NCBI GenBank assembly: GCA_003167475.1
Contig: PMTB01000093.1
Span: 1 to 33,396 of the forward strand
DNA: 33,396 bases
From: a candidate division FCPU426 bacterium
GTDB lineage: Bacteria; Oederibacteriota; PGYV01; Palsa-1178
Reading direction: 5' to 3'
Position numbers and translations under genes: made by a program. The notes beneath the pieces are model-generated. The model had not been told where the DNA came from. It searched no databases and saw nothing but the letters and a program-made list of their open reading frames with translations. Positions 31,099 to 33,396 of the stretch are shown piece after piece (the stretch's first letter is position 1; each line of letters starts with the position of its first letter).

Positions 31099-31127
31099 TT
31101 GACGAAAAACAGTTTTTTTGATATACT
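31099..31127 (+). promoter_or_regulatory. Putative promoter of tandem family member 1
   Basis: TTGACG (31099-31104), 17-bp spacer, TATACT (31122-31127) in tttgatatact context. Confidence 0.6.
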
Positions 31128-31160: not shown

Positions 31161-31838
31161 ATGAAAAAAACATTCATTTACTTTATGACAATCATTTTTA
31201 CGGCAACGGTCAACCCGTCCGTGGTCTTCTCATATCAAAATACGGCTCAAAGCAATCAGAACGACTCCATGCAGCAGATGCTTCAGGATATGCCGCAGGA
31301 TGACGTTCCGACGCCTGTCAGCACGCCCGTGAAGAAAATCAAGACTGTTCTCCCCGGCAATCCGGCCGCAGGGAGTCCGGCGGTTATTCCAAAGGCGCCT
31401 CAAAAATATACAAAGCCGGCAGCATACACCCTGCCTCCGCTGCCTGATGACGCAACCGGTGAAAATCCCAAAACCAAGGCGGATAGTTATTCAAATAACC
31501 AGTTTTTTGCTCAGGACCTGTGCATAACGGCAAAAAGAGACGCGGAAAAAGACAATGGCGGATCATTTTGGATGTGGGCCGGCTTGGGCTGCCTTGGAAG
31601 CGTAGCCGGGTCCATATTGGGCATTGTTGCGATTATTTGCGGATATGCAATATCCATGCCTGTCCCGGTTTACAGGATATTGGGAAAATCATCGGATTAT
31701 GTAAATGAATACACATCCTGTTATCAGGAATATACCAGATCGGCAAACGGTAACTCCGCATTAGTAGGATGCTTAGCTCCATATGTCCTGGCGCTGGTTG
31801 CTGTCGGGATATACCTCATTTCTACGAACCAGCTTTGA
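31161..31838 (+). CDS. Exported membrane protein, tandem family member 1
   Basis: Signal peptide; Pro-rich linker; core CITAKRDAEKDNGGSFWMWAGLGC...IVAIICGYAISMPVPVYRILGKSSDYVNEYTSCYQEYTRSANGNSALVGC. Confidence 0.85.
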   Translation: MKKTFIYFMTIIFTATVNPSVVFSYQNTAQSNQNDSMQQMLQDMPQDDVPTPVSTPVKKIKTVLPGNPAAGSPAVIPKAPQKYTKPAAYTLPPLPDDATGENPKTKADSYSNNQFFAQDLCITAKRDAEKDNGGSFWMWAGLGCLGSVAGSILGIVAIICGYAISMPVPVYRILGKSSDYVNEYTSCYQEYTRSANGNSALVGCLAPYVLALVAVGIYLISTNQL

Positions 31839-31881
31839 GCTTTTCACCGGAAGTAAGGGGGCAATTGTTTGATTTGTTGGA

Positions 31882-31910
31882 TTGACGGGAAAATCGGGTT
31901 TTGATATACT
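31882..31910 (+). promoter_or_regulatory. Putative promoter of tandem family member 2
   Basis: TTGACG (31882-31887), 17-bp spacer, TATACT (31905-31910) in tttgatatact context, matching the member 1 promoter. Confidence 0.6.
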
Positions 31911-31946
31911 TGATATCATTGACGCTAAATTTCAGGGGGTGGAAAA

Positions 31947-32537
31947 ATGAAAAAAACATTCATATATTTTTTAATCTGCATTATCTCAATGACCGCCAAT
32001 CCGGTTGTCCTTTTTGCGTTCAGTAATAACACACAGTCAAAACCAGTCAAAAGTGATGTGCAGCCGACAAAACCGGCAGCGGATGAAGATCCACCGCTGC
32101 CCGGGGAAGTACCGCAGAATACTCCAACTGAGTACAAACCAGCCGGTTATCCAAACAGCCAGCAGGTTAATTCTCAGGAAAATATATGCGCTCTGGCGAA
32201 AAAAGACGCCAAGTCCGATAACGGCGGGTCATTTTGGATGTGGTCAGGGCTAGGGTGCGCTTCGGGGATTGTCGGGTCTCCTTTACTTGGGATTGTTGCC
32301 ATAATATGCGGTTATAATATTTCTATGTCCGTACCGTCAAATCGTATCATAGGAAAGTCTTCATCATATGTTAAAGACTATGTTATGTGTTACCAGGAAG
32401 AAACAAGGTCGGAAAATGGCGGATCGGCAATAGTGGGATGCGTTGGGAGTGCTTTGGTTTATTTGGCCGTAATTGCCGTATATTACATCATGTTTGCCTC
32501 TATTATGAGTTCCGCGGTTTCAACTTCAGTTTACTAA
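31947..32537 (+). CDS. Exported membrane protein, tandem family member 2
   Basis: MKKTFIYFLICIISMTANPVVLFAF signal closely matches member 1; core CALAKKDAKSDNGGSFWMWSGLGC...GIVAIICGYNISMSVPSNRIIGKSSSYVKDYVMCYQEETRSENGGSAIVGC. Confidence 0.85.
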   Translation: MKKTFIYFLICIISMTANPVVLFAFSNNTQSKPVKSDVQPTKPAADEDPPLPGEVPQNTPTEYKPAGYPNSQQVNSQENICALAKKDAKSDNGGSFWMWSGLGCASGIVGSPLLGIVAIICGYNISMSVPSNRIIGKSSSYVKDYVMCYQEETRSENGGSAIVGCVGSALVYLAVIAVYYIMFASIMSSAVSTSVY

Positions 32538-32571
32538 GTCAGCTTAAAACAGCTTAAAACATGAAATAATA

Positions 32572-32600
32572 TTGACAAAATATCAAACATTTGATAAGGT
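32572..32600 (+). promoter_or_regulatory. Possible promoter of tandem family member 3
   Basis: TTGACA (32572-32577), 17-bp spacer, weak -10 TAAGGT (32595-32600). Confidence 0.4.
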
Positions 32601-32645
32601 ATTTTTACAGGGTATTATGAATCTATTAAAATTAGGAGGATTACG

Positions 32646-33050
32646 ATGAAGAAATTTGGACTTGTACTGCTTGTAGTAGCATTACTTGCAACATGCGCGC
32701 CTGTTTTGACACTTGCTTATTCGACCGGAGGAGACGCTTGCGGCCAGGCAAAGACTGATGCAGGAATCGACAATGGAGGAATGCATTGGATTTGGTATGG
32801 GGCTGGTTGCCTTTTTCCGGTCATTGCTATTCTTGGCGGTTTTTTGATACCAATGCCGGTACCCGCTAACAGAATTATGGGAAAATCAGCTGAGTATGTA
32901 ACAAACTACACCCAGTGCTATCAGGAACAGACAAAAACGGACAATGGAATGGCTGCAATATGGGGAACCGTAACAGCCGGAGTATTATACTGTGCAGTAT
33001 GGATTTACTATGCATTTGTTGTGGTTTCAGTCGCTTCAACAGTATATTAA
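32646..33050 (+). CDS. Exported membrane protein, tandem family member 3 (lacks Pro-rich linker)
   Basis: Signal peptide MKKFGLVLLVVALLATCAPVLTLA; core CGQAKTDAGIDNGGMHWIWYGAGC...IPMPVPANRIMGKSAEYVTNYTQCYQEQTKTDNGMAAIWG. Confidence 0.85.
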   Translation: MKKFGLVLLVVALLATCAPVLTLAYSTGGDACGQAKTDAGIDNGGMHWIWYGAGCLFPVIAILGGFLIPMPVPANRIMGKSAEYVTNYTQCYQEQTKTDNGMAAIWGTVTAGVLYCAVWIYYAFVVVSVASTVY

Positions 33051-33083
33051 TTCATCTAAATAAAAATTAGAAATATTCTCTTG

Positions 33084-33122
33084 CTAAAGTGGGGCTCTAA
33101 CAAGGGCTCCACTTTAGTTATT
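33084..33122 (+). terminator. Rho-independent-type terminator after family member 3
   Basis: ctaaagtggggc (33084-33095) pairs with gctccactttag (33106-33116 region) with one G-U, followed by T-rich ttatttta. Confidence 0.75.
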
Positions 33123-33136
33123 TTAGGAGGAATAAT

Positions 33137-33396
33137 TTGAAAAAAATTATTTTAGCTTTTTTTATTTTCACCGTCAGTTGTCATACTGTCCATGCCGGAA
33201 ATTTAGCTTTTAATTTCTATAAAGAGTCTTATGAATCCGGGCAGGTGGACAAAACAGGCGGGTTCCTATACATGAAAGTCGGGACCCAACCCCAGGAGAC
33301 CGTATTTTATTTTCATATTACTTTTCCAGTCAACCAGATCCTTGAATTTACCAAAAAAGAAACGCAAATATATTACCCTGATGAAAAAAAAGCCAT
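33137..33396 (+). CDS. Exported protein, N-terminal part only (runs off window), possibly LolA-like
   Basis: TTG start after aggagg; MKKIILAFFIFTVSCHTVHAGNLAFNFYKESYESGQVDKTGGFLYMKVGTQPQETVFYFHITFPVNQILEFTKKETQIYYPDEKKA. Open to the window end; absent from the ATG-based ORF track. Confidence 0.6.
   Translation, partial: MKKIILAFFIFTVSCHTVHAGNLAFNFYKESYESGQVDKTGGFLYMKVGTQPQETVFYFHITFPVNQILEFTKKETQIYYPDEKKA

Follow-up and report, generated by a model that had tools for sequence, protein, structure and literature searches.

A Tandem Family of Small Exported Membrane Proteins Encoded with LolA-like, Exported YidD-like, and TPR Proteins: A Possible Envelope-Biogenesis Module

Three consecutive genes near the end of a 33,396-nucleotide stretch of DNA (contig PMTB01000093.1 of assembly GCA_003167475.1, from a candidate division FCPU426 bacterium), hereafter called the window, encode paralogous small exported membrane proteins. 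Their protein family, labeled FAM, was found to belong to a well supported gene module that also contains genes for a LolA-like protein, a YidD-like protein, and a TPR protein. No description of an operon of this type was found in the open-access papers that were searched. We tentatively propose, at a confidence somewhat short of even, that the trio is part of an undescribed module for envelope biogenesis in which FAM is the client and the LolA-like, YidD-like, and TPR proteins are its machinery. Computation established the family, the operon, the co-occurrences, the signal-like segments, the hairpin, and the joint presence of two cysteines; the disulfides, the unequal expression, and above all the client-machinery relation, and with it the role of FAM, are what we infer here.

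Results

The existence of three tandem genes, as claimed in the original prediction, is in agreement with the open reading frames, which are listed below. Residue numbers are those of member 3 throughout.

31161 to 31838, + strand: FAM member 1 (225 amino acids); signal peptide, Pro-rich linker, and core with the equivalents of C32, C55, C91, and C108
31947 to 32537, + strand: FAM member 2 (196 amino acids); signal peptide, shorter Pro-rich linker, and core with all four cysteines
32646 to 33050, + strand: FAM member 3 (134 amino acids); core immediately after the signal peptide; C32, C55, and C91, with Thr at position 108

Identity to member 3 is 41% for member 1 and 43% for member 2, and a search with member 3 as the query matched these two proteins at E = 2e-23 and 2.7e-21, which places the paralogy of the trio beyond chance. 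A fourth copy in the window genome (C139:17578) was matched by the same query at E = 2.4e-15 and is more distant than the members of the trio are from one another. Each of the three proteins starts with a signal-peptide-like segment, consistent with their earlier description as small exported membrane proteins, and the Pro-rich linker was found where it had been reported, in members 1 and 2, and is missing from member 3. The invariant features of the trio are C32, C55, C91, DA, DNGG, W-x-W-x-G-x-GC, GKS, two Tyr residues, and CYQE. The three cysteines that had been singled out as conserved are thus invariant in the trio, but a further one, C108, had been overlooked; members 1 and 2 have it, as do most of the exported relatives, and member 3 has Thr at this position. 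A C-terminal Tyr was found in 21 of 66 signal-bearing FAM members and is not universal.

The trio gave no significant profile match in Pfam, NCBIfam, PHROGs, or PADLOC, in line with the earlier view that no characterized family is involved. The best Pfam match (0.0068) is below the cut-off, the best PHROGs match has E = 0.088, and a fold search of the FAM model against the PDB and viral structures returned nothing below E = 1. The wider uncharacterized family that had been anticipated does exist: profile searches recovered FAM in five phylum-level groups, those of genomes G000, G168, G283, G256, and G359, whose family codes are disjoint. A profile built from eight FAM members gave matches in 13 of the 383 genomes sampled. 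With a broader profile, FAM was detected in 66 of 85 genomes from the phylum of G359, at up to 20 copies per genome; it was also found in 50 of 147 genomes from the phylum of G168. Within the phylum of the window genome, 5 of 45 genomes have a match, and the tail of an additional FAM gene lies at a contig edge in G011. The number of copies per genome ranges from 1 to 20 and tandem arrangement is common, so that the tandem layout of the trio is typical.

FAM also occurs without a LolA-like gene. This was seen in G001 and G002, for the fourth copy of the window genome, which lies beside a gene for a trypsin-like protease with TPR and those for two exported proteins, and in the phylum of G359 for FAM paralogs that have no signal segment and are mostly devoid of cysteine. 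The loci L012 (G000:C139), with the fourth copy, and L016 (G001:C65), with its G001 counterpart, share one gene order: a trypsin-like protease with TPR, two exported proteins without a Pfam match, and FAM. Short signal-less and almost Cys-free FAM paralogs were observed in tandem arrays beside exported ones at L030, L045, L051, and L053, all from the phylum of G359. In addition, a CsgG-like domain (PF03783, E about 1.7e-6) is fused to a following FAM domain in L087:2233-3102 and L088:988-1887, and these fusions of G467 and G465 are encoded in the same operon. No curli genes were seen, however, and the fusion is missing from the window genome. The CsgG-FAM fusions and the protease and exported-protein neighbors of the fourth copy also point to the envelope.

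The original prediction did not extend to the operon downstream of the trio, mainly because the window stops inside the next gene. The genes that follow member 3 are given below.

33137 to 33396, + strand: 5' part of a gene of the LolA superfamily, which extends beyond the window, across an intervening run of N, as far as contig position 33787
Contig positions 33784 to 34221, after the LolA-like gene: YidD-like gene whose product has a signal-like segment at the N-terminus
Contig positions 34243 to 35094, after the YidD-like gene: TPR gene, encoding exported TPR repeats and a C-terminal hydrophobic domain

Because of the run of N (window position 33396; about 2397-2403 of L011), the LolA-like gene is incomplete in the assembly. 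The order FAM, LolA-like, YidD-like recurs in all five of the groups named above, and one or two TPR genes come after the YidD-like gene wherever the locus is long enough (five groups). The association was also determined with the LolA-like profile as the query instead of FAM as the bait, which avoids circularity. In these searches, 13 of 13 genomes with a strong match outside the phylum of G359 were found to have FAM directly upstream. Within the phylum of G359, 63 genomes have both FAM and the LolA-like gene, 19 have neither, 3 have FAM only, and none has the LolA-like gene only; the three genomes with FAM only are 78-81% complete. Of six genomes in genus g344, three have FAM, and the LolA-like gene is found in these same three. 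Among the 45 LolA loci that were examined, FAM is directly upstream in 28 and YidD is downstream in 42, and FAM is often not adjacent to the LolA-like gene inside the phylum of G359; neither these locus counts nor the counts of co-occurrence are independent, owing to the relatedness of the genomes. The LolA-like gene is present in one, or rarely two, copies per genome, compared with 1 to 20 for FAM.

Other exported proteins were noticed around these loci. Two adjacent exported genes at L011:7056-8052, after the operon region, resemble NlpC/P60 peptidases by eye. In the phylum of G359, an exported protein that by eye is possibly an outer-membrane barrel is encoded near FAM or TPR genes at L131:6250-7278 and L134:7883-8951; the one at L131:6250-7278 has no NCBIfam match.

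Lipoproteins bound for the outer membrane are carried through the periplasm by LolA, and YidD of E. coli helps in the insertion of membrane proteins. By its sequence and fold relationships, the gene from position 33137 onward encodes a divergent relative of LolA. The Pfam LolA model (PF03548) matched two of eight members of the LolA-like family (best, 2.9e-6), and nine of nine matches to PDB profiles were to LolA, with E-values of 0.05-0.83. The LolA-like protein is comparable in size to LolA and is likewise exported, with an N-terminal hydrophobic segment in 66 of 70 open reading frames. It differs from LolA itself in that it scores 17.2 and 31.9 bits against the NCBIfam lolA equivalog model TIGR00547, far below the cut-off of 112, and in its linkage to FAM and YidD. 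Elsewhere in the phylum, genomes give only weak, generic LolA-like matches, and FAM is not beside these.

The YidD-like gene is well above the curated cut-offs, with 65.7 bits for PF01809 (cut-off, 27) and 65.4 bits for TIGR00278 (cut-off, 40), the models that describe the insertion efficiency factor of E. coli, and the conserved cysteines are kept. Canonical YidD is a short signal-less protein encoded in the arrangement rpmH-rnpA-yidD-yidC, whereas the operon copy has an exported-type, signal-like N-terminus and resides in another operon. The ordinary yidD of the window genome was located on C250, between the genes for RnpA and YidC, and the operon copy is therefore an extra, exported paralog. 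An N-terminal hydrophobic segment was found in 63 of the 67 YidD-like open reading frames that were scored, and the canonical copy is one of the four without it. Cross-linking of YidD is listed in PMC8082313. The TPR protein resembles BamD/YfiO and CpoB/YbgF in being exported and in having TPR repeats, and it gave weak matches to the YbgF and YfiO models. It falls below every cut-off, however, and possesses an additional C-terminal hydrophobic "PGSG" domain with a weak resemblance to DUF6677.

Two promoter-like sites and a terminator-like hairpin were located around the trio.

31099 to 31127, + strand: promoter-like site preceding member 1; TTGACG-17-TATACT and an extended -10, a consensus match only
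31882 to 31910, + strand: promoter-like site preceding member 2; TTGACG-17-TATACT and an extended -10, a consensus match only
33083 to 33118, + strand: terminator-like hairpin at the junction of member 3 and the LolA-like gene; 16 pairs, -24.6 kcal/mol

The two promoter-like sites are near-identical when aligned. The folding energy of a 53-nucleotide stretch at the hairpin was calculated to be -28.1 kcal/mol (z = -7.4), and the same junction in relatives gave z-values of -6.0 (G006) and -2.7 (G010). A hairpin of -16 kcal/mol or lower with a T tail is present at 14 of 49 FAM to LolA junctions, one of which (L088) lies inside the LolA-like coding region and is to be discounted, compared with 2 of 46 LolA to YidD junctions (p = 0.002). 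None of 20 FAM to LolA junctions from the phylum of G359 has a strong hairpin. In the window as well as in relatives, the hairpin separates FAM from the LolA-like gene, which suggests that FAM is probably made in excess over the downstream products.

The distribution of the cysteines was determined in 83 nonredundant FAM members. Of these, 27 have both C32 and C91, 56 have neither, and none has only one of the two (p = 2e-22, uncorrected for relatedness); all 27 members with the pair are signal-bearing. On a tree of the 83 sequences, C32 and C91 change nine times each; two independent pairs are on well-supported branches and both are concordant, and with only two such pairs the tree test is underpowered. 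Since the two residues occur only together, a periplasmic disulfide between C32 and C91 is predicted as the simplest reading. Among the same 83 members, C55 and C108 are associated with one another and with the signal segment, most clearly in comparison with the signal-less paralogs. Their association is significant by table and not by independent pairs, and a C55-C108 pairing is only suggestive.

The predicted C32-C91 bond would also speak against a simple two-pass topology. The proteins of the trio have two hydrophobic segments with a K/R-rich loop between them, and a plain two-pass hairpin would put the loop with C91 in the cytoplasm, in conflict with a periplasmic bond to C32. The first hydrophobic segment may fail to span the membrane, or the topology may be unusual in some other way. 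An interchain bond would still require C32 and C91 to be on one side of the membrane.

It had also been suggested that the core is internally duplicated, with C-x9-DNG before the first hydrophobic segment and C-x7-xNG before the second. This pattern is literally present in the trio, yet it is no feature of the family among the 83 nonredundant members. Position 43 is mainly V, T, or I, position 44 is a gap in 79 members, and position 100 is Q in 66. Outside the trio the first motif is mostly D-V/T-N-x and the second has Q, and both the DNG and the second NG are therefore specific to the trio. A profile of the first half matched the second half only around the common block of GC plus hydrophobic residues. 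The score of 17.2, compared with a mean of 9.2 for block-shuffled sequences, was reached by 1 of 150 shuffles, and after removal of the GC columns the similarity was indistinguishable from that of shuffles (47 of 150). Family-wide, the two halves share only the GC dipeptide that opens each hydrophobic segment. In an AlphaFold2 model made from a three-sequence alignment (pLDDT 74.6, moderate confidence), the first half is a broken short helix (44-56 and 58-67) and the second is a single long helix (82-133). By inspection, and at this moderate confidence, the two segments do not look structurally equivalent. Duplicated C-x-NG units were accordingly rejected as a family feature, the NG halves vanishing outside the trio and the similarity being lost without the GC columns.

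Discussion

In the mechanism that we propose, the module would consist of FAM, the LolA-like protein, the exported YidD-like protein, a TPR protein, and often a second TPR protein. The signal peptide would take FAM past the inner membrane, where a periplasmic C32-C91 disulfide may hold the protein, probably joined in most exported members by C55-C108. The terminator-like hairpin would restrict read-through into the downstream genes and generate a surplus of FAM. The LolA-like, YidD-like, and TPR proteins, normally encoded as one set per genome, would serve as low-copy machinery for the transfer or insertion of hydrophobic FAM proteins, or of a complex built from them, into their final membrane. 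FAM is variable in number and, judging from the hairpin, probably abundant, and the other proteins are normally single, which favors FAM as the client or building block.

The main rival to the client reading is that FAM is a membrane-bound partner of the LolA-like and YidD-like proteins, for example, a docking or release site for other lipidated or hydrophobic cargo, in which case the tandem copies would be docking variants. Every strong LolA-like match outside one phylum has FAM, as would be the case for an obligate partner, and members 1 and 2 could extend into the periplasm through their Pro-rich linkers. This docking role is nevertheless regarded as somewhat less likely than the client reading, because up to 20 copies of FAM face what is normally a single LolA-like gene, because FAM also occurs without that gene, and because the hairpin between the two predicts unequal amounts. 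The presence of FAM in other settings (the protease and exported-protein cluster, the CsgG-domain fusions, and stand-alone copies) would be explained if it were an envelope protein of general function, in stress or in structure, that only happens to be cotranscribed with an unrelated YidD/LolA/TPR operon. Such a coincidence would have to account for the conserved adjacency and for joint presence and absence at the level of the genus, across several phyla, and we regard it as quite improbable.

The perfect co-occurrence of C32 and C91 might instead reflect catalytic cysteines in a small redox or metal-binding membrane protein. These two residues are missing from 56 of the 83 nonredundant members, in which the remaining core is kept, and neither a CXXC motif nor nearby redox genes were seen; a catalytic function is considered to be very improbable. 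Even harder to credit is that FAM acts as a small membrane protein of the holin-like or toxin-like kind, or in a defense system. FAM is small, hydrophobic, and multicopy, as such proteins would be, but it has no PADLOC match, no PHROG match better than E = 0.088, and no fold match to viral or PDB structures with E below 1, and it is encoded in a conserved chromosomal operon with envelope genes of the housekeeping type.

The client reading can be stated more specifically, in a form that is itself rather unlikely to hold in every part: an as yet undescribed assembly system, common to at least five phyla of bacteria, would use an exported YidD, TPR proteins, and a LolA relative dedicated to the task to place a high-copy, disulfide-stabilized FAM in the envelope, with YidD-type insertion help coming from the periplasmic side. 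The role of YidD is poorly understood, and a signal-bearing paralog whose conserved operon also encodes a LolA relative provides a defined setting in which it can be tested. The perfect pairing of C32 with C91 likewise constitutes a direct and testable structural prediction. Should FAM prove to be the client, several phyla would have an abundant envelope membrane protein of a new class that is delivered by machinery of its own.
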